From a virus: 21,100 nucleotides of DNA. The translations under genes and the position numbers were made by a program. Location: the IMG/VR virus record IMGVR_UViG_3300020172_003043, positions 1-21,100 of that record; one strand, given 5' to 3'. Positions within the stretch are counted from its first letter, which is position 1. Each line of letters begins with the position of its first letter. The notes beneath the pieces were generated by a model. The model was not told the DNA's origin, did not search any database, and saw only the letters and a list, made by a program, of their open reading frames with translations. Positions 368 through 17,410 of the stretch are shown piece after piece.

Positions 368-375
368 TATTTATA
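368..375 (+). promoter_or_regulatory. TATTTATA element, 4 nt before the start codon
   Basis: TATTTATA is followed by GAAT and then the ATG at 380. The same 15-base string, TATTTATAGAATATG, recurs before the gene at 1462. It is a candidate phage promoter (or start-site element) for the jelly-roll gene. Confidence 0.5.
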
Positions 376-379
376 GAAT

Positions 380-940
380 ATGTCAAGTTTACCAATATCA
401 CAATTACCCGAATTAACAGGATTAACTTCTAATTCTGAATTACCTGTTTCACAAGGTGGGGTTACATATAAAATTAAAAGAGGTAATATGGCCACAGGTA
501 AATTCTATGGTTCTTTTTACCATTCCACCACACAATCTGGATTTACAGCAAATACAACATACATTTTAAGTGCTTCAACAATTTCAGAAAATAATGGTAT
601 AACAGTCAATAATGGAACTGATTTTACCGTTTCAAGTGGTGCAACATATAATTTACAATTTTCCGCTCAAGTACAAAAAACACAGGGAGGTTCTTCTGAA
701 GATATGTATATATGGTTGAGAAAAAATGGAGCGGATGTTCCATCTTCTAACACAAAAATAACTTTTGCCAATAATGGTGTTTTATTGGTTGCTTCTTGGA
801 ATTTTGTAATAACATTATTGGCAAATGAATATTTACAATTAGCGTTTCAGGTAACCGACCCACATATAATTGTTTTTGCTGCACCATCAAATAGTGTACC
901 CGCAATCCCATCGGTTATTGTTACGCTTGTACAAATCTAA
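380..940 (+). CDS. Jelly-roll (C1q/TNF-like) virion protein with N-terminal attachment peptide
   Basis: A 186-residue protein. Residues 1-36 (SLPISQLPELTG, then ELPVSQGGVTYKI) match the short N-terminal attachment segment common in phage fibre and decoration proteins. The remainder (about 43-186) has the beta-rich pattern of phage C1q/TNF-like jelly-roll domains: YGSFYHSTTQSGF, FSAQVQKTQGG, IWLRKNGADVPSSNT, YLQLAFQVTD. Such domains typically form trimers at the virion surface. The gene at 951 is a paralogue over the whole jelly roll but has a different N-terminus. The start at 380 follows a TATTTATA element. The role is probably a fibre, baseplate appendage or capsid/tail decoration protein; which one cannot be decided from sequence. 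Confidence 0.8.
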   Translation: MSSLPISQLPELTGLTSNSELPVSQGGVTYKIKRGNMATGKFYGSFYHSTTQSGFTANTTYILSASTISENNGITVNNGTDFTVSSGATYNLQFSAQVQKTQGGSSEDMYIWLRKNGADVPSSNTKITFANNGVLLVASWNFVITLLANEYLQLAFQVTDPHIIVFAAPSNSVPAIPSVIVTLVQI

Positions 941-950
941 TTAATTCTGT

Positions 951-1448
951 ATGTCGGTAGTAATTAATGATTTAATAGATAGAGAAACAGGTAATATAAA
1001 AACCACATACACCAATTCAGGTAAACCATACGGTGCGTTTAAAAGTACCTCGAATCAATCAGGATTTACCGTTAATTCTACTTATATTGCTTCTTCACCT
1101 ACCGTTACAGAAAACGGAGGAATCACCGTGGTTAATGGTACCGATTTTAAAGTTCCAAGTAACGGAACATATGCAATGCAATTCTCCGTTCATTTGAAGA
1201 AAACTCAAGGTACTGTAAATAAAACAGTAAATCTTTGGTTAAGAAAAAACGGTACAGACATTGCAGATACCGACACAGAAATTACACTTTTTAGTAATAA
1301 CAGAATTAATATGACATTATTTAATTTTGTTGAGACCTTAAATGCCGATGATTATATACAACTTGCATTTAGTGTCAGTGACTCAAACATAATTTTAGAA
1401 AATACAACAGGAGTACCATCTGTGACATTTACTATTGTTCAAACCTAA
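951..1448 (+). CDS. Second jelly-roll (C1q/TNF-like) virion protein, paralogue of the preceding gene
   Basis: A 165-residue protein. From about residue 26 it aligns throughout with the preceding protein: YGAFKSTSNQSGF, YIASSPTVTENGGITV, LWLRKNGTDIADTDTEIT, YIQLAFSVSDSNII. The N-terminal 25 residues (SVVINDLIDRETGNIKTTY) are unrelated to those of the paralogue, so the same display domain seems to be mounted on a different adaptor. Only 10 nt separate the two genes and there is no TATTTATA element, so it is probably co-transcribed with its neighbour. The likely role is a surface-exposed trimeric fibre or decoration component; this is inferred from the fold pattern. Confidence 0.78.
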   Translation: MSVVINDLIDRETGNIKTTYTNSGKPYGAFKSTSNQSGFTVNSTYIASSPTVTENGGITVVNGTDFKVPSNGTYAMQFSVHLKKTQGTVNKTVNLWLRKNGTDIADTDTEITLFSNNRINMTLFNFVETLNADDYIQLAFSVSDSNIILENTTGVPSVTFTIVQT

Positions 1449-1449
1449 C

Positions 1450-1457
1450 TATTTATA
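1450..1457 (+). promoter_or_regulatory. TATTTATA element, 4 nt before the start codon
   Basis: TATTTATA lies just after the previous stop codon (1446-1448) and is followed by GAAT and the ATG at 1462. The layout is identical to the element at 368. Confidence 0.5.
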
Positions 1458-1461
1458 GAAT

Positions 1462-1830
1462 ATGGAATTTTTTATTAGACAAGGCGCATCAGAACCTATT
1501 TTAAAGTTAAGAATGATTGACGACGGTAAAAACGACAAGTCAGGTTTCAACGATTCTTTAGAAAGTTGTGACATCACGTTTGATATGTACGATGTGGAAA
1601 CCGGTGAACCTGAAATTTTAAATTCTGATTGTTACATTACCACAAGAGATAAAAAATATCATCAAACAACTGATGAATATTATATTGTTCATCGTTTTAC
1701 TGAATCTCAGACTTCTAAGGTTGGAAAATATGAAGGAAAAATAACAATCCAATTCTTAGATACTAGTTTAAATCCAACAACCAAACTCATTTTACCCGTT
1801 AAGGAAAAATTATTTATCACCATATTTTGA
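1462..1830 (+). CDS. BppU-N-like baseplate/appendage protein
   Basis: A 122-residue protein consisting of a single beta-rich domain. It opens with FFIRQGASEPILKLRMIDDG, continues with ITFDMYDVETGEPEI and ends with VGKYEGKITIQF and the strand LILPVKEKLFITI. This order matches the small domain at the N-terminus of BppU-type upper baseplate proteins, which joins receptor-binding parts to the tail. Here it stands alone without a C-terminal extension. It follows the two jelly-roll genes, which fits a common role in the adsorption apparatus. The family assignment is from memory of the pattern and is moderately sure. Confidence 0.65.
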   Translation: MEFFIRQGASEPILKLRMIDDGKNDKSGFNDSLESCDITFDMYDVETGEPEILNSDCYITTRDKKYHQTTDEYYIVHRFTESQTSKVGKYEGKITIQFLDTSLNPTTKLILPVKEKLFITIF

Positions 1831-1869
1831 TAATTCAAAATAATTTTGTATAATTGATAGTAAGACAAA

Positions 1870-1889
1870 TTACAACAATTCCGTTGTAA
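1870..1889 (+). promoter_or_regulatory. Leader hairpin upstream of the DNA polymerase (candidate autogenous operator)
   Basis: A perfect inverted repeat, TTACAAC-aattcc-GTTGTAA (7-bp stem, 6-nt loop), lies 29 nt upstream of the polymerase ATG. T4 DNA polymerase (gp43) represses its own translation by binding an mRNA hairpin in the same place; by analogy this could be an autoregulatory operator. No U-tract follows, so it is not a terminator. Confidence 0.4.
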
Positions 1890-1918
1890 GTTAATGTGTC
1901 ACCTTTAAATTATATAAC

Positions 1919-4816
1919 ATGAGTGAAGTCATTTCGCAAGAAACCATTGAAGGTTTCTTAAACGGTTGGGACCCCGAGCAGTATATCGTTGGGGTTGAGT
2001 ACGATTACAGAACCAACAAAATCTACAAAATTATTCAGGACCCTGAACAGGGAAAAATTGTTAAACCCGACACCTTTACACCATTTTTATGGGTTGGTGA
2101 CTTATCCGGTCTAAACTTTTACCAAAACAACAAAACCCTTCAAAAGAAAAAGATGGGTGAGTATGGTATTCTAATTGAGAAATTGGAAACGGGTGGAAAT
2201 GAAAGACTTGAGGCTGGTATGAATTACTTGGTCAAGAGTTTAAAAGGTTACACTGAGTTAATCAATTTCTTTAAACAAGGTGGTTTAGACCCATGGGGAG
2301 AAAATGTGAGACAACATTTTACAATCCTTTCTCCCGTTGAACAGTATTTGATTCAAAAGAAAAAAAGATTATTCAAAGGTATTGACGATTATTCGGGTGT
2401 TCATCGATTTGTATTCGATATCGAGACCACAGGTTTGGAACCTGAAACCAATACGATAATTCTTATTGGAGTCAAAGACAACCGTGGTTTAAACAGAACA
2501 ATTCCCGCGTTCGGTGAAGACGGTGAGAAAAATTGTATCGAACAATTCTTTGAAATCATTAGAGAATTAAAACCAACAATCATAGGTGGTTACAACTCCG
2601 CTTTCTTTGACTGGCCGTTTATTTTAAAACGTGCCGAGATTTTAGGTGTGGATGTAAGTGGACTAACTCAAATCTTTACTTCTCAAGGAATGAAAGAGAA
2701 AGAAGGTGTTTTGAAACTTGCAAACGAAGTTGAACCTTATACCCAACACGTTATTTGGGGATTCAACATTATCGATATCGCACATGCGGTTAGAAGAGCA
2801 CAGGCAATCAACTCTGAGATTAAATCGTGGGGTTTGAAATATATCACACAATATCTTGAAAAAGAAAAACCTAATCGTGTTTATGTCGATGGTTCTCGAA
2901 TTTCTAAGATTTATTTGGATAATGAGTTGTATTATGTAAATCCTAAAACAGGAAAATATAAACAGATTGGTGAACCCGGTACAGATGGTTTGATGGAAAA
3001 GTATCCGGGTAAATATGAAATATGGTCAGGTAGTAGAATCGTTGAACAATATCTTGACGATGACTTGTATGAAACTATGGTTGTGGACGATTCGTTCAGT
3101 CAATCAACTTTCTTACTTTCTAAACTTGTACCTACAACATATGAAAGGATTGCAACAATGGGAACGGCAACACTGTGGAAAATCATCATGTTAGCATGGT
3201 CATATGAAAACAACTTGGCCGTTCCAATCAAAGCAGAAAAACGTGCAATTACGGGTGGACTATCTCGTCTATTGAATGTGGGGTACGCTAAAGACATCGT
3301 TAAGTTTGACTACTCTTCACTTTATCCGTCCATTCAATTGGTTTATGATGTATTCCCTGAATGTGATATTATGGGTGTACAGAAATCGATGTTAAAGTAT
3401 TTCCGTAACATTCGTATCAAATACAAACATTTAGCTGGTGAATTAAAAGATAAAGACCCTGTACAAGCAGAAATGTACGACCGTAAACAATTACCAATCA
3501 AAATCTTTATCAACGCATACTTTGGTTCATTATCGGCACCACATGTATTTCCATGGGGAGATATGGATAAAGGAGAAACAATCACATGTGTGGGTAGACA
3601 ATGTCTTCGTATGATGATTATGTTCTTTGAGAAGAAAGGTTATAAACCACTTGTAATGGATACGGACGGGGTAAACTTCTCGACACCAGATAATGTAAAT
3701 GAAACTGTTTACATTGGTAAAGGTTTAAATGAATTAGTAGTTGAAGGTAAAGAATACCGTGGTATTGAAGCCGACACCGCAGAATTCAATGATATCTTCA
3801 TGAGAAATGAGATGGGGTTAGATATTGACTACACCGCACCTGCATGTATTAACGTCTCAAGAAAAAACTACATCATTAAATTGATGAAGAAAGGTAAAGA
3901 GAAAATCAAATTAACGGGGAACACAATCAAATCTAAAAAACTACAACAATATATTGTGGAGTTCTTGGATGAAGGTTTCAAATATTTGTTAAGTGGAGAT
4001 GGATTGTCTTTTGTTGAATTGTATTATCAATACGTAGATAAGATTTATAATAAAGAAATTCCACTTTCTAAAATAGCAAATAAATCTCGTGTTAAACAAT
4101 CGGTTGCCGATTATAAAAAACACATTCAAAAAACAACCAAGGCGGGTTCGTTAATGTCACGTCAAGCACACATGGAGTTAGTTATTCAAAATGATTATCC
4201 TGCGGGTCTTGGTGAAACTATTTTTTATGTGAACAACGGTAAAAAGAAATCTGATGGTGATGTTCAGAAAGTAACTAAACCAACTAAGAAACAACAAGAA
4301 GAATTTTTAGCTGAGTTTGGTCATTCAATGCCAAATAACTACATTCAAATTAATTGTTATATGGTTCCTGAAAAGGAATTAATAAACAATCCAAATTTAA
4401 CAGGTGATTATAATGTTGCTCGTTATTTGAGTAATTTTAATAAAAGAATCGAACCATTACTTTGTGTATTCAAACCTGAAATTCGTCATGATATTTTAGT
4501 GGAGAAACCTGAAGATAGACAGTTCTTTACTAAATCACAGTGTGAATTGGTTAACGGTTTCCCATTAAAAGAAGATGGTCAGGATAAATACGATGAGGTG
4601 ATGACCCTATCTGATGGTGAGGTTATATTTTGGAACCGAGTTAGTCGTGACCCATTCTTTATGTACGTAGAGGATAGTCTTAAACTTGCCGACCCGTATT
4701 GGGTTGACCACAATAGAAAAGTTGTGAGTCTACAGGCAGAAAGTATTAAGAGTAATGAGGATGAAATAATCGAAACCAATGGTAACGATTTTGCATACCA
4801 CGCAATAGAAAGTTAA
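1919..4816 (+). CDS. 43: Family-B replicative DNA polymerase with 3'-5' exonuclease (T4 gp43-like)
   Basis: A 965-residue protein carrying the full family-B motif order. Exo I is FVFDIETTG (D167, E169); Exo II is GGYNSAFFDWP (N226, D231); Exo III is YLDDD (Y378, D382). Polymerase motif A is DYSSLYPSI (D464). Motif B is KIFINAYFG (K528, N532). Motif C is DTDGVNF (D581, D583). A KxY-like SRKNY follows near 647-651, with thumb sequence after it. All catalytic acidic residues are present, so polymerization and proofreading should both work. Two positions are unusual for T4-type enzymes: the motif B Tyr of the usual YG is Phe (F535), and motif C reads DTDGVN instead of DTDSVY. The gene stands alone between virion genes, has no TATTTATA element immediately upstream, and has a hairpin in its leader. 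Its stop codon overlaps that of the convergent neck-type gene. Confidence 0.95.
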   Translation: MSEVISQETIEGFLNGWDPEQYIVGVEYDYRTNKIYKIIQDPEQGKIVKPDTFTPFLWVGDLSGLNFYQNNKTLQKKKMGEYGILIEKLETGGNERLEAGMNYLVKSLKGYTELINFFKQGGLDPWGENVRQHFTILSPVEQYLIQKKKRLFKGIDDYSGVHRFVFDIETTGLEPETNTIILIGVKDNRGLNRTIPAFGEDGEKNCIEQFFEIIRELKPTIIGGYNSAFFDWPFILKRAEILGVDVSGLTQIFTSQGMKEKEGVLKLANEVEPYTQHVIWGFNIIDIAHAVRRAQAINSEIKSWGLKYITQYLEKEKPNRVYVDGSRISKIYLDNELYYVNPKTGKYKQIGEPGTDGLMEKYPGKYEIWSGSRIVEQYLDDDLYETMVVDDSFSQSTFLLSKLVPTTYERIATMGTATLWKIIMLAWSYENNLAVPIKAEKRAITGGLSRLLNVGYAKDIVKFDYSSLYPSIQLVYDVFPECDIMGVQKSMLKYFRNIRIKYKHLAGELKDKDPVQAEMYDRKQLPIKIFINAYFGSLSAPHVFPWGDMDKGETITCVGRQCLRMMIMFFEKKGYKPLVMDTDGVNFSTPDNVNETVYIGKGLNELVVEGKEYRGIEADTAEFNDIFMRNEMGLDIDYTAPACINVSRKNYIIKLMKKGKEKIKLTGNTIKSKKLQQYIVEFLDEGFKYLLSGDGLSFVELYYQYVDKIYNKEIPLSKIANKSRVKQSVADYKKHIQKTTKAGSLMSRQAHMELVIQNDYPAGLGETIFYVNNGKKKSDGDVQKVTKPTKKQQEEFLAEFGHSMPNNYIQINCYMVPEKELINNPNLTGDYNVARYLSNFNKRIEPLLCVFKPEIRHDILVEKPEDRQFFTKSQCELVNGFPLKEDGQDKYDEVMTLSDGEVIFWNRVSRDPFFMYVEDSLKLADPYWVDHNRKVVSLQAESIKSNEDEIIETNGNDFAYHAIES

Positions 4817-5931
4817 ATTACGTTATACGGTGATTGGAATGGTCTATATTTCAATGCCTTATTAAGATTCTCCGCTTCTAAACCTTTTCTTTCGAGAACT
4901 TTTTCGGGGCGGAGTCTTTCTAATCTTTGCATCAATTCTTCAACCAATTTAAGTTTTTCATCTTTACCTTCAGTTAATAGGGTATTGTAATCTAATTTAA
5001 CTTGACTGTCGGGAACTTGTAGGTCTCCTGAGAATTTACCCCATATTCTACCTAATCCTTCTTTTGAATATGCAATAAGGTATTTTCTAACCCAGTTTTG
5101 TGCTGGTTTATTTAATGAATCCCAAGTCAATTCTTCAGTTTCGATGTCGGATGGTAATTTAATAACATCTTTGTTTTTCTTCAAACAAGTGTCTCTATCT
5201 GTAGTATCATAATACCAATACCAAAGTTTATCTCTATTGTTTTGTAATGAACCAAAGTCAAACCTACCACCCGGTACGTTGTACAAGTGAACGATTTTGG
5301 TTCCGTTTGGACCCGCGGTAACACGATATGTTAAATCACCACCGATAAGACGGTTTTTGATATTTCTATCTCCCATTCTTAATAATAAATCAAATGCAGG
5401 TAACATAAAGTAAGAACCTGATGAACCTTGTTGTGCAAAACCACCAACACCACCGAACGCAACACCACCAAGACCACCAAAACCCCCTAAGAAAGGGTCA
5501 ATGATTGAATCGGTCAATTCCGCACGGGTAAACCATAGAAGTTCATTTATTTCTCGTCCTGCGGGGATAACATACGTTTGAGTACCCGCAGATAATGAAA
5601 CATAATCTTTTTTAAGTTCACTATCCCCACCAGTCTGTAAACCAACGATTTTAGAGTATGCATGTGTGTATTGTGTTTCGTAATCTAAACTTCTTGTTGT
5701 GAAAGCTCTTGTTAATGATTGAGTGTCAACATTTAAACCATACAAGGCGGACCATTGAGATTCAATTAACCAATCACTTACGTATTGTTCATATTCAGAT
5801 AATGATAATTCTAAGAACGTATCCATCTGTTCTTCAGTAAGTTCTACACCTCTAACCGGTAGTCCTAATAAATGAAAAACTTGGGTATAAAGTTTTTGTT
5901 TATCGGCGTTTGTTATAATAGTTGCGCTCAT
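4813..5931 (-). CDS. Virion structural protein, probable neck/connector component
   Basis: A 372-residue protein starting at ATG 5931 (MSATIITNADKQ); the upstream TTG at 5946 lies inside the promoter element and is unlikely. Its general pattern resembles a structural family widespread in T4-like marine myoviruses: an N-terminal helical part (LSEYEQYVSDWLIES), a central strand region (LTYRVTAGPNGTKIVHLYNV) and a C-terminal helical segment (NWVRKYLIAYSKEGLGRIWG, then QVPDSQVKLDY). Members are often annotated as neck or structural protein. A glycine-rich loop (about residues 143-170: GGFGGLGGVAFGGVGGF) interrupts the middle. The protein is convergent with DNA polymerase, the two stop codons sharing the four bases 4813-4816, and divergent from the nuclease gene. 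The exact role is inferred. Confidence 0.6.
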   Translation of the reverse strand: MSATIITNADKQKLYTQVFHLLGLPVRGVELTEEQMDTFLELSLSEYEQYVSDWLIESQWSALYGLNVDTQSLTRAFTTRSLDYETQYTHAYSKIVGLQTGGDSELKKDYVSLSAGTQTYVIPAGREINELLWFTRAELTDSIIDPFLGGFGGLGGVAFGGVGGFAQQGSSGSYFMLPAFDLLLRMGDRNIKNRLIGGDLTYRVTAGPNGTKIVHLYNVPGGRFDFGSLQNNRDKLWYWYYDTTDRDTCLKKNKDVIKLPSDIETEELTWDSLNKPAQNWVRKYLIAYSKEGLGRIWGKFSGDLQVPDSQVKLDYNTLLTEGKDEKLKLVEELMQRLERLRPEKVLERKGLEAENLNKALKYRPFQSPYNVI

Positions 5932-5944
5932 ATTTGTTTTTATC

Positions 5945-5952
5945 AATAAATA
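5945..5952 (-). promoter_or_regulatory. TATTTATT element for the neck-type gene
   Basis: Read on the minus strand this is TATTTATTGATAAAAACAAAT followed by ATG at 5931 (13 nt between element and start). The string TATTTATTGATAAA is repeated exactly upstream of the sheath gene (10755-10768, plus strand). Confidence 0.5.
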
Positions 5953-5956
5953 TCTG

Positions 5957-5964
5957 TATTTTTA
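5957..5964 (+). promoter_or_regulatory. TATTTTTA element (variant), 5 nt before the start codon
   Basis: TATTTTTA-GCTTT-ATG precedes the nuclease gene. It differs by one base from TATTTATA. It sits 4 bp from the minus-strand element at 5945-5952, so the 38-bp divergent spacer would hold two back-to-back promoters. Confidence 0.35.
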
Positions 5965-5969
5965 GCTTT

Positions 5970-6890: not shown

Positions 6891-7089
6891 TTTAACTGAC
6901 CTTTTGACATTTTGTTTTAAAAACAAAGTTGAATTCGTTTACCAAAATGAGGAGGGTGAGAATTGCATTACTTACACAACTGAACCAAACAAACTTCTAA
7001 CTATCAATATCACAAACACTGAGGATAAAAACTTAGATAAAATGTTGACAGATAAATTAGAAGAATTAAATCAACTCATTCAAGATTGA
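6865..7089 (+). CDS. Small acidic protein of unknown function, coupled to the nuclease
   Basis: A 74-residue protein (MMKNSTTNNLTDLLTFCF...). The start is an ATGATG pair inside the nuclease gene's 3' end. The product is acidic, with a predicted beta-rich middle (KVEFVYQNEEGENCITYTT) and a C-terminal helix (DKMLTDKLEELNQLIQD). I recognise no family. The 26-nt overlap with the nuclease suggests coupled translation and perhaps a functional partnership such as inhibitor or subunit, which is inference. Its last 24 nt overlap the 3' end of the convergent SNF2 gene, so both C-termini are encoded by the same bases. The ORF looks real from codon use and tight packing. Confidence 0.6.
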   Translation: MMKNSTTNNLTDLLTFCFKNKVEFVYQNEEGENCITYTTEPNKLLTINITNTEDKNLDKMLTDKLEELNQLIQD

Positions 7090-8820: not shown

Positions 8821-8844
8821 ATTCTAAATATAACGAATTAGAAT
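8821..8844. repeat. Inverted repeat in the divergent SNF2/structural-gene spacer
   Basis: ATTCTAA (8821-8827) and TTAGAAT (8838-8844) form perfect 7-bp arms around a 10-nt spacer. The dyad is centred between two divergent start regions, a usual place for a repressor or activator site. Confidence 0.35.
8825..8832 (-). promoter_or_regulatory. TATATTTA element (weak variant) for the SNF2 gene
   Basis: On the minus strand TATATTTAGAATA lies 16 nt before ATG 8808. It resembles TATTTATAGAATA only loosely and overlaps one arm of a dyad (8821-8844), so it may be a different, regulated promoter class. Confidence 0.25.
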
Positions 8845-8856: not shown

Positions 8857-8864
8857 TATTTATT
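8857..8864 (+). promoter_or_regulatory. TATTTATT element, 4 nt before the preferred start codon
   Basis: TATTTATT-AAGT-ATG(8869) reproduces the geometry seen at 368 and 1450. The element lies inside the longer reading frame that starts at ATG 8851, and this decides for the later start. Confidence 0.45.
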
Positions 8865-8868
8865 AAGT

Positions 8869-9381
8869 ATGAAGAATAAATTACCAATCACCAGAATTAG
8901 TAAATTTTGGTCACAAACAGATTTTGATTTGAATGTCCAAATTGGACAGGAATATCTTCATGGTGATTTGGGAATGAAATTAGTTTTGTTTCGTGTTGAT
9001 AGACAGAGTACTGACACAGATGAGGTTTACGCTGAGGTTGGTAAAGATGAAATTAAATTCTTACCACCTGTTGAATTTTATGGTTTAGTTAAGGTTGAAG
9101 AACCAAAAAATAATTCTTATAATAAAGGCGTGAATAGATATCTTGAACCGGGTAACATGACCGTTTCAGTTTACATTCAACATTTAGAAAGTTTAGGGGT
9201 TGACGTTAGTTACGGGGACTATATTGGTTATCCCGAATCTGAAGAGAGAATTAGGTATTATACTGTCACAAACAATGGTAAAGTAACGTCCGATAATAAA
9301 CATAGTATGTTTGGTTATAAACCATTCTATAGAACAATAACTTGTGCTCCGGCTCAAGAATCAGAATTTCGTGGAATTTAA
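8869..9381 (+). CDS. Conserved virion protein, probable head-tail joining/completion protein
   Basis: A 170-residue protein, MKNKLPITRISKFWSQTDFD.... An in-frame ATG at 8851 would add six residues, but those codons overlap a TATTTATT element at the standard distance from ATG 8869, so the later start is chosen. The sequence is beta-rich: MKLVLFRVDRQSTDTDEVYA, IKFLPPVEFYGLVKVEEP, MTVSVYIQHLESLGVDVSYG, GYKPFYRTITCAP. I associate this pattern with conserved small structural proteins of T4-like marine phages but cannot name the T4 counterpart. It lies 2 nt before another structural gene and upstream of sheath and tube, which suggests a head-tail interface or tail-completion role. The family assignment is uncertain. 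Confidence 0.55.
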   Translation: MKNKLPITRISKFWSQTDFDLNVQIGQEYLHGDLGMKLVLFRVDRQSTDTDEVYAEVGKDEIKFLPPVEFYGLVKVEEPKNNSYNKGVNRYLEPGNMTVSVYIQHLESLGVDVSYGDYIGYPESEERIRYYTVTNNGKVTSDNKHSMFGYKPFYRTITCAPAQESEFRGI

Positions 9382-9383
9382 TT

Positions 9384-10490
9384 ATGGGATTACCTAAAAG
9401 AAAAAATAACATTAAAGTATACGGTGTGAACACTGGTTCAAACGCTGGTGATATCATTGGTAGAAGAAAAGAATTGTTGGAGAACATTACAAAGTCCGAC
9501 ACATATCTACCCGATTCTATTTTACACGATGACCTTGATTTAGGTATGCTCGATTTTGTTAAGTCGAACTTTAAAGTTATTTCCGATAGTGTACAGATTC
9601 CAATTGTTCCTAAAATATTAACGGTTCAAAGATGGGGTGAGTTCACAAATAATTGGTCATTTTCTGATGAGGATGGAAATATTAAATTACCTTTTATTGC
9701 CGTGGTTCGAAAACCCGACGTTCAATTTGGTACCAATCCCGCAATACAAAGAACAATTCCTGACAGAAGACAATTCTTCTACGCAACGGTTCCAACATGG
9801 GACGGTAACCAAATGGGTGCCGATGTTTATAAAATACCCCAACCAATTGCAGTTGATATTGGATTTGACGTGACTATTGTTTGTACAAAATTTAGGGACA
9901 TTAATAAATTCAATAAAATTGTTTTAGAACATTTCTCATCTCGTCAAGCATATACCACGGTTAAAGGACACTACATTCCAATTGTCTTAGATAGAATTGA
10001 AGATAATACTCCTATGGATACTTTGGATGGAAGAAGATTCTACGTTCAAAACTATTCGTTCACTATGTTAGGTTTCTTAATTGATGATGAGGAGTTTGAA
10101 GTAAAACCGGCAGTTAATAGGTCTTTACTTATGACTGAGGTAGATGTTACTTCACACAAACAAAGTAATCCCACCATAGATTTAACAATCAATTGTAATT
10201 ACAGTGGAGGTTCAATTGTTGCAGATTATACAGTTACTGCGAGTCGTCCTGTGGATAAAACAATACGAATTTCATTTACCGATACATTAAATGTGGTTTC
10301 GGGTTCAACTGTTCAAATCCCTGTAATAATCTTTATTGAACCTAAACAAACTTCGGGGACAATAAATTATGTTATTAATGATAACTATAATAGGTTAAAT
10401 CAACAAAGTAATATAACTGAATTAAACATAAATGTAATTGGTAGAAGTAAGTACGATTATAATCACATAATCAATTCTACATTCGACTAA
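9384..10490 (+). CDS. Putative tail completion/terminator-type protein with a C-terminal beta-sandwich extension
   Basis: A 368-residue protein; ATG 9384 is 2 nt after the previous stop. Residues 1-260 look like a conserved myovirus structural protein: YLPDSILHDDLDLGMLDFV, KILTVQRWGEF, KFRDINKFNKIVLEHFSSRQ, GHYIPIVLDRIED, RRFYVQNYSFTMLGFLIDDE. The middle part (pairing partners, then SSRQAY) is reminiscent of tail-terminator/sheath-terminator proteins such as T4 gp15, and the gene precedes the sheath gene. Residues about 268-355 read like a Calx-beta/Ig-like sandwich: YTVTASRPVDKTIRISFTD, then VQIPVIIFIEPKQTSG. This is an uncommon addition for a completion protein. Its stop overlaps the stop of the convergent small gene at 10487. 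Confidence 0.5.
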   Translation: MGLPKRKNNIKVYGVNTGSNAGDIIGRRKELLENITKSDTYLPDSILHDDLDLGMLDFVKSNFKVISDSVQIPIVPKILTVQRWGEFTNNWSFSDEDGNIKLPFIAVVRKPDVQFGTNPAIQRTIPDRRQFFYATVPTWDGNQMGADVYKIPQPIAVDIGFDVTIVCTKFRDINKFNKIVLEHFSSRQAYTTVKGHYIPIVLDRIEDNTPMDTLDGRRFYVQNYSFTMLGFLIDDEEFEVKPAVNRSLLMTEVDVTSHKQSNPTIDLTINCNYSGGSIVADYTVTASRPVDKTIRISFTDTLNVVSGSTVQIPVIIFIEPKQTSGTINYVINDNYNRLNQQSNITELNINVIGRSKYDYNHIINSTFD

Positions 10491-10663: not shown

Positions 10664-10669
10664 GATAAA

Positions 10670-10677
10670 GATAAATA
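10670..10677 (-). promoter_or_regulatory. TATTTATC element for the ribbon-helix-helix gene
   Basis: On the minus strand TATTTATC-TTTATC-GTG(10663) has the same polarity and near-start spacing as the plus-strand elements, and supports the GTG start. Confidence 0.45.
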
Positions 10678-10734
10678 TTGATACGAAAAGATAAATTAGT
10701 ATCTCTAATGATATTTTTTGAGAAAATCAAGGAA

Positions 10735-10755
10735 ATCTTTGCTAAAAACAAAGAT
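10735..10755 (+). repeat. Hairpin abutting the sheath promoter element
   Basis: ATCTTTG-ctaaaaa-CAAAGAT is a perfect 7-bp inverted repeat with a 7-nt loop. Its last base is the first base of TATTTATT (10755-10762). It could be an operator next to the sheath promoter. With no T-tract it is not a terminator. Confidence 0.3.
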
Positions 10756-10762
10756 ATTTATT
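10755..10762 (+). promoter_or_regulatory. TATTTATT element with A-rich leader for the tail sheath gene
   Basis: TATTTATTGATAAA is followed by an almost G-free, A-rich leader to ATG 10801, 38 nt after the element. The leader has no Shine-Dalgarno sequence. A-rich leaders are known to favour translation in Bacteroidota. Confidence 0.5.
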
Positions 10763-10800
10763 GATAAAGAAATAAAATTAAACAACCAAACAATTAAAAA

Positions 10801-13650
10801 ATGGCAAATTCAAATAGAGTTTTTGTATCTCCTGGTGTTTACACATCAGAAAAAGATTTAACATTCGTAGCACAAAGTGTTGGGGTGAGTACATTGGGGT
10901 TGGTCGGTGAAACCTTAAAAGGTCCCGCTTTCGAACCAATATTAATAACTAGTTTTGACGAATTCAGGTCTTATTTTGGAACAACGTCACCAGCGAAAGA
11001 TGGTAACAACAATCCAAAATATGAATTACCTTACGTTGCTAAAGCTTACCTTCAAGAATCAAATCAACTTTTTGTAACAAGAATCTTAGGTCTTACAGGA
11101 TACAAACCAAACAAAACATTCGCGGTTAAAACAATCGGTGGAGTTCAATTAGGAACTTACAGTGGTTCTACAACAGGTACAACCATTCCAACAGTAACAG
11201 GTGTAACAGGTAGTACACATTACACAATCTTATCAGGTTTAACTGCATATGACGGTACGACATTACCTAACTACCTTGTTTCAAACTATAGTGGTAATAC
11301 TTCAGGTAATAACGGACAATGGTTTGTTATTGGTGAGGTTCCCGCATCTTCAACTTCTGGTTTAACAGGAACTGAGGCAACATCTCCTTTAACAGGTTTA
11401 GATAACGCAACTAATAACAATACTAAAGAATGGTATAATGTTGTAACAAACGCATCACTTACCGAAGTATATTCTTATTTGTTTGTTTACAACAGTGGTA
11501 CAAGTAGATTCGATGTTACACAGTACACATATAACGCAACTCAAAACACCGAATACAACAACCAAGTTGTTTTAGCATTCAGGTCAAGAGGTTCTTATGT
11601 TGGTCAAACATTGACTTATGAAGTAACAGGTAACACTCAATTTGAAATTACAGGTTCAAGTTTGGCAACTAATCCACTTGCAGAATTCACGGTTAATGTA
11701 ACAGGAGCAACAAGTGGTGGTAAAACTTTCACATGTAGTTTAGATAGTAGTTCGTCAAAATATGTAACTAAAGTATTTGGTTCGGATGTTTATGACAAAT
11801 CAAAATCTGATTGTCCAATTTATGTTTATGAATCATACCCTAACTATTTAGCGGAAGCATACAAACAAGGACTTATTAAAGGTTTGAGTTTAACTGAAGT
11901 TTACAATACCGAAGGTACAAGTTTCTTAAACCAATGGGATACCCCAATGGCACCTACAGTTGTTTCTGAAGTAAGAGGTGGTAACGTTACAGATTTATTC
12001 GATGTTATTACAATCTCTGATGGTGAATCTGCGAACACCGAAGTTAAAGTTTCAATTATCAATATTGATGTTGATACAAAAGAATTCGATTTAATTGTAC
12101 GTGATTTTAATGATACCGATGAAAATATCGTTGCTCTTGAGAAATTTACAAGATGTTCAATGAATCCAGAACTTCCGGGTTATGTTGCTAAAAAAGTTGG
12201 TACATCTGATGGTGAATATGAATTACGTTCAAGATACATCATGTTAAGTATGGCGGATAATCACCCAACCGATGCATATCCCGCAGGTTTCAAAGGTTAC
12301 ACAACAAACGCAACTTTTGGTGGTAGTAATGAGTTAGGTTCTGTAATGTACAAAACTAATTTCTACCAAGCAGGAGATACAACAGGTTATTTGGCTGATG
12401 GTACACCAATCCTTTCAACAGGAGATAAAGTAAGAAAAGTTTACTTTGGTTTGGCTAGTCCTACAGGTAGAGTTACTTATGATAATGACCTATTCAAATA
12501 TAAAGGTTCTGCTGCCGCTGGTGCAACTAAAGGTTTCCACCTTTCAACAAACGCATCATCTATCACAGGTACAACATATACAACTACATCATATGACTTA
12601 GAAGGTCAAACAGGCGTTGATAACGTTTTAACAAATATTAGTTACCGTAAATTCACATTCGCTCCGGCAGGTGGTTTCGATGGTTGGGATATCTACAGAA
12701 ACGTAAGAACTTATGGAGATGGTTACATTTTCGGTAAGAAAACTTATGTGAGTGGTAACACCGCAAATGGTGGAGTGTTTAGTACATCAGTTGGAAACAG
12801 TGACTATTACGCATACACTCAAGGTATTGACACATTTGCAAACCCTGAAGCGGTTGATATTAATATCTTCGCAACACCGGGTATCAACTTCTACGACCAC
12901 AGTTCAATCACAGCTTACGCAATTGATATGACCGAAAATGATAGAGCGGATTCATTATATGTAATCGCATCACCAAACTACGGAACTGCAACTGAAGTAA
13001 TTGACGCATTGGACGGAGTTGCAATTGATAGTAACTATTCTGCAACTTACTGGCCTTGGATTCAAATTAGAGACGTGGATAACGCAACTCAATTATATGT
13101 TCCACCAACAGGTGAAGTAGTAAGAAACATTGCGTTGACAGATAACGTATCTTTCCCTTGGTTCGCGGTAGCGGGTTACTCAAGAGGTTTGGTTAAATCA
13201 ATCAAAGCATTTAAAAAATTAACTCTTGATGAAAGAGATGATTTATATAAAGCAAGAATTAACCCGATTGCAACTTTCTCTGATACAGGTACTATCATTT
13301 GGGGTAATAAAACCCTTCAAGTTAGAGAATCTGCACTTGATAGAATCAACGTAAGAAGATTGTTATTAAGAGCAAGAAAACTTATTTCAGCAGTTGCGAT
13401 TAGATTGTTGTTCGAACAAAACGACGAACAAGTTCGTAACGAGTTCTTGAGATTGGTAAATCCTATATTGGATGCAATTAAAAGAGAAAGAGGTCTTTAT
13501 GATTTCCGTGTAACAGTATCAAGTGACCCTGAGGACATTGATGCAAATACATTAAGAGGTAAAATCTACATTAAACCAACTCGTTCACTTGAATTTATCG
13601 ATGTTGAATTCGTAATTACTCCGACAGGAGCATCATTTGACAATATTTAA
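10801..13650 (+). CDS. 18: Contractile tail sheath protein (T4 gp18-like)
   Basis: A 949-residue protein. The N-terminus (VFVSPGVYTSEKDLTFVAQS, then STLGLVGETLKGPAFEPILI) and segment FRSYFGT plus YVAKAYLQESNQLFVTRILG are the hallmark start of myovirus sheath proteins. The C-terminal third (about 700-949) is also canonical: YPPTGEVV-type loop (YVPPTGEVVRNIAL), LTLDERDDLYKARINPIATF, IWGNKTLQ, RINVRRLLLRARKLISAVA and NPILDAIKRERGLYDFRV. T4 gp18 has 659 residues. The extra length lies in the middle (about 110-620), which is rich in Gly, Ser, Thr and Asn and probably forms surface-exposed insertions. It is followed by a strong terminator and, after the array region, by the tube gene. The sheath polymer contracts around the tube on infection. 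Confidence 0.95.
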   Translation: MANSNRVFVSPGVYTSEKDLTFVAQSVGVSTLGLVGETLKGPAFEPILITSFDEFRSYFGTTSPAKDGNNNPKYELPYVAKAYLQESNQLFVTRILGLTGYKPNKTFAVKTIGGVQLGTYSGSTTGTTIPTVTGVTGSTHYTILSGLTAYDGTTLPNYLVSNYSGNTSGNNGQWFVIGEVPASSTSGLTGTEATSPLTGLDNATNNNTKEWYNVVTNASLTEVYSYLFVYNSGTSRFDVTQYTYNATQNTEYNNQVVLAFRSRGSYVGQTLTYEVTGNTQFEITGSSLATNPLAEFTVNVTGATSGGKTFTCSLDSSSSKYVTKVFGSDVYDKSKSDCPIYVYESYPNYLAEAYKQGLIKGLSLTEVYNTEGTSFLNQWDTPMAPTVVSEVRGGNVTDLFDVITISDGESANTEVKVSIINIDVDTKEFDLIVRDFNDTDENIVALEKFTRCSMNPELPGYVAKKVGTSDGEYELRSRYIMLSMADNHPTDAYPAGFKGYTTNATFGGSNELGSVMYKTNFYQAGDTTGYLADGTPILSTGDKVRKVYFGLASPTGRVTYDNDLFKYKGSAAAGATKGFHLSTNASSITGTTYTTTSYDLEGQTGVDNVLTNISYRKFTFAPAGGFDGWDIYRNVRTYGDGYIFGKKTYVSGNTANGGVFSTSVGNSDYYAYTQGIDTFANPEAVDINIFATPGINFYDHSSITAYAIDMTENDRADSLYVIASPNYGTATEVIDALDGVAIDSNYSATYWPWIQIRDVDNATQLYVPPTGEVVRNIALTDNVSFPWFAVAGYSRGLVKSIKAFKKLTLDERDDLYKARINPIATFSDTGTIIWGNKTLQVRESALDRINVRRLLLRARKLISAVAIRLLFEQNDEQVRNEFLRLVNPILDAIKRERGLYDFRVTVSSDPEDIDANTLRGKIYIKPTRSLEFIDVEFVITPTGASFDNI

Positions 13651-13658
13651 TAAAAAAA

Positions 13659-13687
13659 GGGAAGGTGTAAAAACCTTCCCAATTTTT
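13659..13687 (+). terminator. Rho-independent terminator after the sheath gene
   Basis: GGGAAGGT-gtaaaa-ACCTTCCC is a perfect 8-bp GC-rich stem, preceded by an A-run and followed by AATTTTT. It begins 8 nt after the sheath stop codon. Confidence 0.9.
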
Positions 13688-13731
13688 GTTTTATGTTGAA
13701 TAATATAAAAATAAAAGAATTATAAAATTAC

Positions 13732-13822
13732 CCAGTATATATGCTCCAGTATTCTAGTTCTAGTATTTTATTATCTAGTTTTATTAATCTAGTTAATTTA
13801 CTTCTAGTATCTAGTACTAGTA
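13732..13822. repeat. Degenerate 14-15 bp tandem array of CTAGT-headed units
   Basis: C(T/C)AGT words start at 13732, 13746, 13760, 13775, 13789, 13804 and 13817, with spacings of 14, 14, 15, 14, 15 and 13. Extra CTAGT words lie about half a unit away at 13754 and 13811. Seven CTAG tetranucleotides thus fall within 67 bp. Typical units are CCAGTATTCTAGTT, CTAGTTTTATTAAT and CTAGTTAATTTACTT. The block is extremely AT-rich, non-coding, and lies between the sheath terminator and the tube promoter element. It looks like a multi-copy protein-binding region, possibly an iteron-like origin or a transcription enhancer; neither is proven. Confidence 0.75.
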
Positions 13823-13896
13823 TAGAGAAAAAATACGAAATTTTTTTGACATAATCAAGTATTTGGAAAGAAATTTTTATTTTTTTAACAACGACA

Positions 13897-13904
13897 TATT
13901 TATA
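13897..13904 (+). promoter_or_regulatory. TATTTATA element with A-rich leader for the tail tube gene
   Basis: TATTTATAGG lies 43 nt before ATG 13948. The leader after it is almost only A with a few T and C, closely resembling the sheath leader. The spacer 13681-13947 holds no gene; besides this element it contains the CTAGT array. Confidence 0.5.
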
Positions 13905-13947
13905 GGTAACAAAGTAAATAAAAAAAAATTAAAAACAAACAATAGAC

Positions 13948-14436
13948 ATGGCAGATTTATTAATGAAAATGCCGGTTCCTTACGAACCGAAAAGAGTCAA
14001 CCGATTCATCGTTAGATTCCCTTCTTCATTGGGTATCAACGAATGGTATGTTGCATCCGCAGCTAGACCAAGTGCAAAAATTAACTCAGTTGCAATCCCT
14101 TTTATTAACACTTCAACTTATGTTGCTGGTCGTTTTGAATGGAATGAACTTAGAGTAACCTTCAAAGACCCAATAGGTCCTTCAGCATCCCAAGCGTTAA
14201 TGGAATGGTTCCGTTTACACGCGGAATCTGTAACAGGTCGTATGGGTTATGCTGCAGGTTATAAGAAAGATATTGAATTAGAAATGTTAGACCCAACGGG
14301 AGTTGTGGTTGAAAAATGGATTCTTCAAGGTACATTTATCACAGATTTGAACTTTGGTGAATTGGATTATTCAAGAGATGACATCGCAAATATCACCGCG
14401 TCTTTACGTATGGATAGATGTATTCAAGTTTACTAA
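13948..14436 (+). CDS. 19: Tail tube protein (T4 gp19-like)
   Basis: A 162-residue protein, practically the length of T4 gp19 (163). It shows the family pattern: PKRVNRFIVRFPSSLGINEW, YVASAARPSAKINSVAIPF, WNELRVTFKDPIGPSASQAL, WFRLHAESVTGRMGYAAGYK, ELEMLDPTGVVVEKWIL, GTFITDLNFGELDYSRDDIA and a final strand ITASLRMDRC. It polymerises as hexameric rings to form the inner tube, directly under the sheath encoded just upstream. It is flanked by its own promoter-like element and a terminator, so it can be expressed as a single gene at high level, fitting the large copy number needed. Confidence 0.95.
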   Translation: MADLLMKMPVPYEPKRVNRFIVRFPSSLGINEWYVASAARPSAKINSVAIPFINTSTYVAGRFEWNELRVTFKDPIGPSASQALMEWFRLHAESVTGRMGYAAGYKKDIELEMLDPTGVVVEKWILQGTFITDLNFGELDYSRDDIANITASLRMDRCIQVY

Positions 14437-14467
14437 TATTATTATAAAAATAAAATCTGTCAATATG

Positions 14468-14499
14468 AAGGTCTCTCAAAAGGAGACCTTTACTTTTTT
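14468..14499 (+). terminator. Rho-independent terminator after the tube gene
   Basis: AAGGTCTC-tcaaaag-GAGACCTT is an 8-bp stem followed by TACTTTTTT. It lies 31 nt after the tube stop codon. Confidence 0.88.
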
Positions 14500-14515
14500 A
14501 TTTAAATTCTGTAGA

Positions 14516-14533
14516 TTGTTATAGTTATAACAA
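14516..14533. promoter_or_regulatory. Perfect palindromic dyad upstream of the gp26-like gene
   Basis: TTGTTATA-GT-TATAACAA (8-bp arms, 2-nt centre) ends 8 nt before ATG 14542. This transcription unit lacks the usual TATTTATA element, so the dyad may be an operator or part of a different promoter. Confidence 0.4.
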
Positions 14534-14541
14534 AATAAATT

Positions 14542-15291
14542 ATGGAAGAATATAGAATTGACCCCACGATTGCGTACGATGTCGTGGAATTACCATCAAG
14601 AGGTATACATTATCAAAACAAAAAGAAATCGGTTAGGGTTGCTTACCTTACCGCGGTTGATGAAAACATTTTATCTGCACAAAATTTAATTGCAACCAAT
14701 GGTGTTGTTGATGAATTATTGAGAAGAAAAGTTTTAGATAGAGAAATCACACCGGAAGAAATAACCGAAGAAGATAAACAAGCAATCTTAATTTTTTTAA
14801 GAAATACAGCATTCGGTGCCGATTATACATTTTATTTAACGGACCCAAAAACGGATAAAGAATTTACTTCAACAGTTGATTTAAGTGAATTACAATTCAA
14901 AGAATTCAATTTAACACCTGATGTTAATAATGAATTCCAATATCACATGGATAAGTCAAATGTTGATATAACATTTAAATTTTTGACACCAAAACAACTA
15001 AAAGAAATTGATGAAATTGAAAAAAGTTGGAATGGAATTGGGGTTGCTCCTGTCGTTACCAAACAGTTAGAGATGATGATTAAAACTGTTTCAGGTAATA
15101 AGGACCCAATGAATATTAGAAATTTTATTGAAAAGTTACCTATCAAAGATTCTCAAGATTTTAGAAAATTCGTCAAAGAAAACAAACCCGGAATTAATTT
15201 AACAAGAAAAGTAATCGCCCCGTCAGGAGAAGAAATCAATGTAGAAGTTGGTTTTGGGGTGGAGTTTTTTCGCCCTTTCTACGGACTATAA
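14542..15291 (+). CDS. 26: Baseplate hub assembly protein (T4 gp26-like)
   Basis: A 249-residue protein. The N-terminal VVELPSRGIHYQNKKKSVRV followed by AVDENILSAQNLIATNGVVD, LLRRKVLDREIT and AILIFLRNTAFGADYTFYL is the pattern of the T4-type baseplate protein family containing gp26. The rest is helical, rich in Lys and Glu, and ends VEVGFGVEFFRPFYGL. Order (tube, gp26-like, gp51-like, tape measure) supports a role in building the central baseplate hub. The final 38 nt overlap the start of the next small ORF in another frame. Confidence in the family is good; the precise T4 role of gp26 remains limited knowledge. Confidence 0.8.
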   Translation: MEEYRIDPTIAYDVVELPSRGIHYQNKKKSVRVAYLTAVDENILSAQNLIATNGVVDELLRRKVLDREITPEEITEEDKQAILIFLRNTAFGADYTFYLTDPKTDKEFTSTVDLSELQFKEFNLTPDVNNEFQYHMDKSNVDITFKFLTPKQLKEIDEIEKSWNGIGVAPVVTKQLEMMIKTVSGNKDPMNIRNFIEKLPIKDSQDFRKFVKENKPGINLTRKVIAPSGEEINVEVGFGVEFFRPFYGL

Positions 15292-15424
15292 GAAAAATCA
15301 ATTAGACGAAATTTTATATTTGGTCAAAAGAGGGTTCGCTTATGGTGATGTCCTTACCATGCCCATTTATTTACGAAGATACTATGTAAACTACATTATT
15401 GAATTAGAAAACACTACTAAATAG
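15254..15424 (+). CDS. 51: Small baseplate hub assembly protein (T4 gp51-like), non-ATG start
   Basis: A frame open from 15245 to TAG 15422-15424 encodes YKKNQLDEILYLVKRGFAYG, then DVLTMPIYLRRYYVNYIIEL and ENTTK. The motif of an L-x-L-hydrophobic helix, GF-Y-DV and MP-x-x-RRYY is what small proteins following gp26 in T4-like phages look like, where gp51 acts in hub assembly. There is no ATG before the conserved part. The start is taken as TTG 15254 (about 56 residues), with TTG 15248 as an alternative. Another possibility is a +1 frameshift from the gp26-like gene near its T6 run (15265-15270), giving a fused product. The stop codon abuts the next TATTTATA element. Confidence 0.65.
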   Translation: MGWSFFALSTDYKKNQLDEILYLVKRGFAYGDVLTMPIYLRRYYVNYIIELENTTK

Positions 15425-15432
15425 TATTTATA
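15425..15432 (+). promoter_or_regulatory. TATTTATA element, 3 nt before the start codon
   Basis: TATTTATA-GGT-ATG(15436) directly follows the stop codon of the gp51-like ORF. It is one of the closest element-to-start spacings in the window. Confidence 0.5.
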
Positions 15433-15435
15433 GGT

Positions 15436-17388
15436 ATGGCATCACTTAATATTTCTAACCAAGCAAAAAGTTTAGCTCAATCTAAAAGGTACCAAGAGTT
15501 TTTAACTATGGTGGCTAAGGATAATAGGGTTAGTCTTAATGACGCTAACGTGAAACAAGAAATTGATAATGCTTACGTGAGTTATAGTTCAGTTGCTCCA
15601 ACTACGGGAAATGATGACAAGGGTAGTGGATTCAAAGAAACCACGAAAAGTGTTACTCAAGGAGCTAGTGATATTTTTAAAGGGACGTTAACAAACCAAA
15701 GTGTTTTACAACAAAATATTGGATACAACATGTCAAGTCTTCAATCAGAAGAGGCGATTGACTTTAGTTCAGTTTATAGTAGTATTGAAACATCTATTAA
15801 AAAAGGTGAAGGTGCCGTTAGTGTCATGAAAAACTTATTAGGTAGTTTACTAATGACTATAGGTGAACAAATCAATGACCAATTAGGTAAAGAGATTCAG
15901 TTAAGAAATAAAGTCAATTCCGAATTGGGGATGACGGGAGAATTATCAAAGGGTTTTAGAGATAACATTTTAGAAGCAGCACCCGCCGCGACCCAAATGG
16001 CGTTTAGTTTTGAAGAATTATCAAATTTTGCTGTAGATTTATCTAAAAACACAGGTAGAATGGTGGCATTCAATAAGGACACCTTAGTTGATGCACAAAA
16101 AACGGCAAGAGCGTTCTATGGTGATTTACGTTCACTTGGCTCGGCGTTAGATAGTTTTGAAAAAATCGGTACGGGAGCACAGGCGGCAATCACACAAATA
16201 GACAAAGCTGGTAAATCGTCTTTAGAATTAGGTTTAAATGCAAGAAAAGTTGTTGAGAGTCTTAGTTCTAATTTAAATAAAATGAATCAATATGGATTTA
16301 AAGACGGTGTTGAAGGTTTAACTAAAATGACACAAAAGTCCATTGAATTCAGAATGAATATGGATTCTGTTTTTAGATTGGCGGATGATTTATTTGACCC
16401 TGATAAGGCAATTGCATTATCTGCGGAATTACAAGCGATTGGTGGTACTATTGGTGATTTTAATGACCCACTGAAGTTAATGTACATGGCAACTAATGAT
16501 GCCGGTGGATTACAAGATGCAATGATTGGAGTTGCGGGTTCGTTAGCCACGTATAACCAAGAGTTAGGTAAATTTGAAATTACAGGAGCGAATCTAAGAA
16601 AGGCAAAAGAATTAAGTAAACAGTTGGGTATGAGTATGGAAGACTTAACCAACACGGCAATTAAGTCACAAGAAAGAACTTCAGCTTCTGCTGAATTAAT
16701 GTCTAAAGGTTTTGCGTTAAGTGATAAAGAAAAAGAATTCTTAACTAACATCTCAAGGATGGAAGGTGGTAAGATGGTTGTTGACGTTTCATCAATTTCA
16801 AAAGAGTTTGGTGGAGCACAACAAATTGCATTAGATGAACTTACCGAAACACAAAAAAACGTGTTATTGAAAAACCAAGAGGCGTTTGAAAAAATGTCCC
16901 CTGAAGAAATCGCGAGAGACCAATATACCGTAACACAAAATATCCAAAAAGATTTATCTGCAATGTTAACACTTGCAAAAGTAAATGCTGCTAAAGGTTT
17001 TAGGGGTGGTTTAGATGCGGTAGATAAGTTATTGGAAGAGAAAGCGGGGGATAAATTAAAAGAAACAACAACTGCAGCAGTTAAAGGACAAGAAAGTAAC
17101 GTGGTTGCTGAATTTGTTAAAGGAGCGGGTGAAGAGGCCAGTAAATTAATTGCAAAGGGAGTTGCTCTTACCGGAGTTAAGGTCGATAATTCAACGCAAA
17201 ATACCAACAATACCAACGGAACCACAAATAATGGTACGGTAACTACCGTTATACACAAACATTCACTTTCCGGTAGTGATGTTGTCACTGACTATACAAG
17301 AAGAACGTGGGACGAACAAATGGCGAAAACCAATCCACAAGATTATGCATCTGATACAAATTTATCAAACCCATTAAATAGAAAATAA
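15436..17388 (+). CDS. Tail tape-measure-like protein (gp29-type)
   Basis: A 650-residue, mostly helical protein. A hydrophobic helix GAVSVMKNLLGSLLMTIGEQ lies at about 126-145. The middle is typical of tape measures: LSSNLNKMNQYGFKDGVEGL, FRLADDLFDPDKAIALSAEL, QAIGGTIGDFNDPLKLMYMA, FEITGANLRKAKELSKQLGM and SMEDLTNTAIKSQERTSASA. A Thr/Asn-rich linker near 595-612 precedes a short C-terminal tail with VIHKHSLSG. The location after the hub-assembly genes and the length close to T4 gp29 (590) support a hub/tape-measure role. If fully helical at 0.15 nm per residue it would span about 97 nm, a rough tail length estimate. A long antisense open frame at 16287-17288 is a shadow of this gene. Confidence 0.78.
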   Translation: MASLNISNQAKSLAQSKRYQEFLTMVAKDNRVSLNDANVKQEIDNAYVSYSSVAPTTGNDDKGSGFKETTKSVTQGASDIFKGTLTNQSVLQQNIGYNMSSLQSEEAIDFSSVYSSIETSIKKGEGAVSVMKNLLGSLLMTIGEQINDQLGKEIQLRNKVNSELGMTGELSKGFRDNILEAAPAATQMAFSFEELSNFAVDLSKNTGRMVAFNKDTLVDAQKTARAFYGDLRSLGSALDSFEKIGTGAQAAITQIDKAGKSSLELGLNARKVVESLSSNLNKMNQYGFKDGVEGLTKMTQKSIEFRMNMDSVFRLADDLFDPDKAIALSAELQAIGGTIGDFNDPLKLMYMATNDAGGLQDAMIGVAGSLATYNQELGKFEITGANLRKAKELSKQLGMSMEDLTNTAIKSQERTSASAELMSKGFALSDKEKEFLTNISRMEGGKMVVDVSSISKEFGGAQQIALDELTETQKNVLLKNQEAFEKMSPEEIARDQYTVTQNIQKDLSAMLTLAKVNAAKGFRGGLDAVDKLLEEKAGDKLKETTTAAVKGQESNVVAEFVKGAGEEASKLIAKGVALTGVKVDNSTQNTNNTNGTTNNGTVTTVIHKHSLSGSDVVTDYTRRTWDEQMAKTNPQDYASDTNLSNPLNRK

Positions 17389-17402
17389 AATTAAAAAACA
17401 CC

Positions 17403-17410
17403 TATTTATA
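17403..17410 (+). promoter_or_regulatory. TATTTATA element, 12 nt before the start codon
   Basis: TATTTATA is followed by TAATAAAAATAA and ATG 17423. It lies in the 34-nt spacer after the tape-measure gene. Confidence 0.48.

Follow-up and report, generated by a model that had tools for sequence, protein, structure and literature searches.

TATTTAT(A) upstream of virion genes as a probable late promoter element in a T4-related phage lineage

Late transcription in phage T4 depends on promoters of the sequence TATAAATA and on gp55, gp33 and gp45. T4-type late promoters act late in infection, with the RNA start about 10 bp past the box centre. Here we describe an element, TATTTAT(A), that precedes genes in a 21.1-kb fragment (33.7% G+C) of a virus record, IMG/VR record IMGVR_UViG_3300020172_003043, positions 1 to 21,100, referred to below as the window. 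From its sequence and distribution, the element is very probably a promoter, a -10-type late element of a T4-related lineage infecting Bacteroidota, and we infer the late timing and the start sites of the transcription that it drives. Late boxes identified in silico in phages KVP40, 44RR, S-PM2 and Aeh1 are reported to be highly similar to TATAAATA or, in Aeh1, changed at positions -13/-12 (PMC2988020).

As in T4, an 8-bp AT box is the sole conserved element, with no -35 conservation, and is found on both strands before virion genes, and relatives of the window encode a gp55-like protein. The first-pass annotation of the window had remarked that the element is the reverse complement of the T4 late box. 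This is correct for TATTTATA, but the remark can be refined, because in the same orientation the two boxes share 6 of 8 bases and differ only at the two central ones, AA in T4 and TT here, so that a changed T4-type box is a simpler account than a flipped box. Use of the T4 box TATAAATA itself, in its T4 orientation, was tested and rejected, as this sequence is depleted on the sense strand of same-strand gaps (2 vs 5.6 expected). The systems also differ in that the nearest TATAAATA is 14 nt from the start in the annotated T4 late genes checked whereas boxes here reach 4 nt. A T4-type clamp (PF02916) was not detected in nine related records. The box appears to work like a T4 late promoter but departs from the defining consensus, and we regard it as a variant of the T4-type late promoter. 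KVP40, 44RR, S-PM2 and Aeh1 similarly have consensus boxes before late genes, but none of those reported has TT in place of the central AA. An arrangement in which the box touches the start codon is at background in T4, HTVC008M, S-RIM12 and NCTB (0-2 per genome), and also in Flavobacterium phage immuto and phage Mel-JY01.

With the Bacteroidota housekeeping promoter (-33 TTTG / -7 TAHHTTTG), the element shares a spacing: transcripts mapped in Flavobacterium johnsoniae begin 4-5 nt past the -7 element (PMC6847099), and start codons here cluster at that distance from the box. In contrast to that promoter, the box is a strict and different sequence, has no -33 element and precedes virion-type genes only; TAHHTTTG occurs only 7 times in 143 box-bearing upstream regions, and 20 times in antisense. 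The late promoters of phiKZ (TATG, with the start at G) show that a phage late start can coincide with the start codon, but they belong to an unrelated system, in which the phage supplies the multisubunit RNA polymerase that reads them (PMC5312081). Searches of the available literature library found neither a TATTTAT or TATTTATA phage promoter nor TATAAATA late promoters tied to Bacteroidetes.

Enrichment and gene context of the box

The window comes from a T4-related myovirus. Its products include a family B DNA polymerase, an SNF2-type helicase and, among virion proteins, a gp13-like adaptor, the sheath and tube of the tail and a T4-type baseplate protein. Close relatives are encoded on hundreds of IMG/VR contigs. 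Among isolates, the sheath is nearest to those of Mel-JY01, for which Microcystis is the recorded host, and immuto. A Bacteroidota host is suggested by previously described lake phages that encode ribosomal protein bS21 (PMC9723584), by immuto and by host-type TATATTTG elements. Motifs were counted in a core set comprising the window and seven large related contigs (55-155 kb), with 532 upstream regions and with gene calls in the contigs from a home-made codon-model script, and then in a held-out 269-kb contig that was unused in the earlier counts. Conservation before individual genes is given as the number of distinct upstream regions across 80 sheath loci, and box-to-start distances are counted from the 7-mer TATTTAT unless stated.

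By z-score, no 7-mer in the 532 upstream regions is more enriched than TATTTAT, with 151 copies where 21.7 are expected and the simulation maximum is 33. In same-strand gaps of the core set there are 113 sense copies (15.3 expected) and 14 antisense copies (18.1 expected), and TATTTATA is found 77 times (5.1 expected). Hardly any single-base variants occur 4-6 nt from the start, where the exact sequence has 51 copies and no one-mismatch form has more than 4. TATTTAT is again the top 7-mer in the held-out contig (75 vs 14.1), where same-strand gaps contain 63 sense and 5 antisense copies, and it is also enriched in the genomes of immuto and Mel-JY01 (34 vs 6.2 and 26 vs 6.7, respectively). A -35 or -33 element was sought in logos of near and far sites and not found, with no column upstream of -16 above about 0.2 bit.

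Of the 16 gene starts in the window, 9 are preceded within 60 nt by an exact TATTTAT oriented like the gene (0.77 expected), a number that none of 5000 simulations reached. These are the nine exact copies listed in the first-pass annotation, each located as described there and reading TATTTAT in the direction of its own gene, and the proposal of an upstream signal withstands this comparison with background. The distances to the start are 4, 5, 5, 5, 7, 13, 14, 39 and 44 nt; the earlier values of 3, 4, 4, 4, 6, 12, 13, 38 and 43 nt, counted from the 8-mer, are the same distances minus one. Two further sites put forward as variants did not hold up: the one at 5957 reads TATTTTT, a form not enriched upstream (27 vs 30.8 expected), and the one at 8825-8832, before the helicase gene, reads TATTTAG, a class that is likewise not enriched (9 vs 7.7 expected). 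An exact copy is present before 12 of 36 relatives in the helicase family. Counted over the whole window, TATTTATH is not enriched (14 vs 10.4 expected in shuffled sequence) because five copies, at 1811, 4583, 6091, 6284 and 18074, lie inside coding sequence. Whole-window counting fails to split the signal from the AT-rich background, while position and relatives do so.

The individual boxes are well kept among relatives. The copy before the gene at 8869 is present in 37/37 distinct relatives, in 36 of them at 4-7 nt, and this conserved position favours ATG 8869 as the start over the in-frame ATG 8851. The box is kept in 26/26 distinct relatives for the gp13-like gene, for which the open reading frame list gives an earlier TTG start at 5946, and in 21 of 23 relatives for the gene at 17423. 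The 58-aa gene has an upstream copy in 42 of 46 relatives, often 4 or 7 nt before the ATG. For the sheath gene the box is kept in 39/39 distinct relatives and is invariant in all 18 aligned upstream regions, and for the tube gene it is kept in 37 of 38; before both genes, the exact 7-mer is conserved roughly 31-47 nt upstream. Spacing is kept as well, at 5 nt in contigs G007, G010 and G011 for the family of the gene at 1462 (family 15) and at 4 nt in seven of eight contigs for that of the gene at 15436 (family 11), although the intervening bases vary.

Across gene families, the box accompanies portal, terminase, protease, gp25 and other virion families, and is lacking within 60 nt upstream of the gp41, UvsX, gp61, polymerase and gp55-like families. 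Counts are also low upstream of the polymerase gene at up to 70 nt (2 of 16), the gene at 9384 (3 of 40) and the baseplate gene at 14542 (3 of 39). Virion families in the held-out contig carry the box, except for the capsid gene and a gp53-like gene, and the gp41, UvsX, gp61, polymerase and gp55-like genes there do not. The earlier observation that boxless genes mostly follow a neighbour closely extends to the lineage, with the box found before 7 of 203 same-strand genes with a gap of <11 nt vs 59 of 151 with a gap of at least 40 nt; two boxless genes in the window have gaps of 88 and 105 nt. Metatranscriptomes of related lake phages with bS21 indicate that their structural region is not transcribed as one operon (PMC9723584).

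Spacing to the start codon and predicted transcript starts

The distance between box and start codon has a sharp lower edge. No box in the core set is 0-3 nt from the start, followed by 28 at 4 nt, 16 at 5 nt and 7 at 6 nt, and weighting by family leaves the peak at 4 nt (7.9 families), then 5 nt (6.5) and 6 nt (4.0). The held-out contig has one box at 1 nt, none at 2-3 nt, 12 at 4 nt and 10 at 5 nt. Other words of the same composition have no comparable empty zone beside a peak, except for words that overlap the box. At 4-nt sites the base before the ATG is a pyrimidine in 28/28 cases, vs 188/379 for boxless genes, and at sites at least 11 nt away the commonest pyrimidine-A step is also at +5 after the 7-mer (39%).

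Because mapped Flavobacterium transcripts start 4-5 nt after the -7 element, many of the late mRNAs should be leaderless, in a setting where F. johnsoniae has leaders of >10 nt on 87% of transcripts (PMC6847099). At the 4-5 nt sites, the simplest reading, and a likely one given these sequence features, puts the RNA start on the A of AUG. The 4-nt edge, the pyrimidine before the ATG, the 4-5 nt geometry of Flavobacterium and the boxes that adjoin terminators, described below, lend support at the sequence level to the near-leaderless mRNAs predicted in the first-pass annotation.

In the mechanism we propose, each virion transcription unit would carry its own copy of TATTTAT(A). The core of the host RNA polymerase would be redirected by a phage late sigma, for which a gp55-like protein is the candidate, and, in the absence of a -35 element, would open the DNA at the box. 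RNA would start about 4-6 nt past the 7-mer, with A after a pyrimidine preferred. Where the box ends 4-5 nt before the ATG, the first RNA base would be the A of AUG, and the mRNA would be leaderless or have a leader of one or two bases, while a box farther upstream would give an A-rich leader.

Candidate recogniser and competing explanations

A gp55-like family of 232 aa is present in G003, G004, G010, G014, Mel-JY01, immuto and many IMG/VR contigs; the window is a fragment without this gene. T4 gp55 is matched by phmmer (E 9e-5), PHROG 234, 'late sigma transcription factor', is matched with E 1e-3, and the Sigma70_r2 match is sub-threshold. The best match of the family profile in the whole PDB is T4 gp55 (7d7c, E 9e-4), and the predicted structure, used as support only, resembles sigma factors. 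The protein is annotated as hypothetical in GenBank. On these matches, it is reasonably probable that the candidate gp55-like protein recognises the box. The family (G003:71019-71717 and relatives) also has a C-terminal extension, STKEIRISLRKYRKLYE, that is not in T4 gp55 and that may be a helix-turn-helix.

If TATTTAT were a processing site, with longer transcripts cut at an AU-rich element to give short-leader or leaderless virion mRNAs, an oriented AU-rich motif shortly before starts would look alike, and the 5' ends of T4 transcripts obtained by primer extension carried the same ambiguity (PMC2988020). However, among 109 sites checked, 8 have an intrinsic terminator ahead of the box, in several cases directly adjoining, and before the terminase gene the T-run of the terminator passes straight into TATTTATATATATG. 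This juxtaposition counts against the processing of a longer RNA, as little read-through RNA would arrive at such boxes. Boxes also head divergent units, replication genes with comparable gaps have none, and a pyrimidine-A step at a fixed offset is a feature of initiation, making a processing site very unlikely. The same can be said, even more firmly, of a translation-initiation signal that takes the place of the Shine-Dalgarno sequence in a Bacteroidota host. The common 4-5 nt spacing and the rarity of Shine-Dalgarno-like sequences in these upstream regions would suit such a signal, but the exact motif before the sheath and tube starts is too far away for start selection, and genes inside operons also need translation yet almost never have a box (7/203). 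Flavobacterium initiation uses A-rich positions, for example A at -3 (PMC6847099), whereas only 21% of the 4-nt sites have A there. The preference for a promoter over a ribosome-binding signal in the first-pass annotation is borne out by the far conserved copies, the orientation, the absence from replication genes, the intolerance of mismatches and the terminators upstream.

An unmodified host sigma, in place of a phage late sigma, would fit the box-to-start spacing, which matches that of the host -7 element, and the T-rich character of both elements, and some genes in the contigs do carry a host-type TATATTTG 4-6 nt before the ATG. We consider this unlikely. The box departs from TAHHTTTG and allows not one substitution, host-type elements are found outside the virion-type families to which the box is restricted, and a gp55-like sigma is encoded.

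Several points weigh against a late promoter read by a gp55-like sigma. Start codons rest on the home-made gene caller, and orthologues are not independent, so that the 28/28 pyrimidine result spans about ten families. A preference for a pyrimidine is also seen in the held-out contig, but more weakly (18/22 at 4-5 nt vs 132/219). The major capsid gene is without a box of its own; the gene before it has one, and in lake phages with bS21 the capsid gene is apparently co-transcribed with its upstream neighbour (PMC9723584). The match of the gp55-like family to T4 gp55 is remote, its copies in Mel-JY01 and immuto are below significance against PHROG 234, and its structure is predicted with only moderate confidence (pTM 0.46). 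A search with PF02916 for a T4-type sliding clamp finds T4 gp45 but none in nine related records, where a divergent clamp is possible, and a syntenic clamp candidate in Mel-JY01 has no Pfam match.

Features of the window, bS21 and additional observations

The boxes and the genes discussed here are listed in Table 1. The proteins encoded at 15436..17388 and 17423..21100 have no family match. The sheath protein is far longer than T4 gp18 (659 aa), with the matched sheath domains in its last third.

Table 1 Putative late boxes and selected genes in the window.
Feature	Position	Strand	Details
Late box TATTTATA	368..375	+	5 nt before ATG 380; T precedes ATG
Late box TATTTATA	1450..1457	+	5 nt before ATG 1462; T precedes ATG
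Late box TATTTATT	5945..5952	-	14 nt before ATG 5931, gp13-like head-tail adaptor gene
Late box TATTTATT	8857..8864	+	5 nt before ATG 8869
Late box TATTTATC	10670..10677	-	7 nt before GTG 10663, 58-aa gene
Late box TATTTATT	10755..10762	+	39 nt before ATG 10801, tail sheath gene
Late box TATTTATA	13897..13904	+	44 nt before ATG 13948, tail tube gene
Late box TATTTATA	15425..15432	+	4 nt before ATG 15436; T precedes ATG; predicted leaderless mRNA
Late box TATTTATA	17403..17410	+	13 nt before ATG 17423, large virion-region gene
Family B DNA polymerase gene (contrast gene)	1919..4816	+	No box within 60 nt; PHROG 262
gp13-like head-tail adaptor gene	4813..5931	-	Box-bearing; PHROG 211, E 1.8e-9
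Tail sheath gene (gp18-like, 949 aa)	10801..13650	+	Box-bearing; Phage_sheath_1 and 1C
Tail tube gene (gp19-like)	13948..14436	+	Box-bearing; PHROG 4542, E 2e-25
650-aa tail-region gene	15436..17388	+	Box-bearing, predicted leaderless; position after tube and hub genes
Large tail-region gene	17423..21100	+	Box-bearing

Ribosomal protein bS21 is encoded in G003, G004, G010 and Mel-JY01. In G003, G004 and G010 its gene is on the strand opposite the terminase, portal, protease and capsid genes, which is also the layout in freshwater Bacteroidetes phages with bS21 (PMC9723584). It is conceivable, though doubtful, that the late programme runs on leaderless mRNAs, with a re-specified gp55-type sigma that recognises TATTTAT and initiates RNA at the AUG, and a phage bS21 that steers the Bacteroidota ribosome to leaderless or short-leader phage messages. 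If so, the choice of start site and the modification of the ribosome would jointly favour phage over host translation. As phage bS21 has already been linked to late expression in such phages, its combination with the box offers a testable proposal for the capture of host translation. The box itself would provide a promoter code for very abundant uncultured freshwater Bacteroidota phages, with late units, start codons and time classes readable from sequence. It would also mean that a change of host polymerase can go along with a re-specified T4 late box, and it suggests leaderless late messages in hosts whose own mRNAs are mostly leadered and which ignore Shine-Dalgarno sequences.

Other sequence features were also noted. 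A conserved inverted repeat, ATCTTTG-N7-CAAAGAT, at 10735-10755 immediately precedes the sheath box in nearly all aligned relatives and is a possible additional regulatory element of the sheath gene. A further exact TATTTAT, at 1811-1817, falls in the last part of the gene at 1462-1830 and precedes the DNA polymerase start by ~100 nt. In seven of eight contigs this distance is 97-102 nt; the copy could reflect coding conservation or a distal promoter. In the immuto genome, a longer motif around TTCGTATATTTA and TTTAGGTATCAATAAT recurs upstream of genes; it differs from the late box and is possibly another promoter class. Host-type -7 elements (TATATTTG) are found 4-6 nt before the ATG of G003 genes 63 and 79, G004 gene 63, G010 gene 15 and G007 gene 12, some of them right after terminators, which suggests leaderless messages from host-type promoters too. 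Finally, Mel-JY01 (PP395634.1) is recorded as a Microcystis phage, yet it encodes bS21 and is nearest this Bacteroidota-type lineage by its sheath and gp55-like proteins, so that its host assignment deserves a check.

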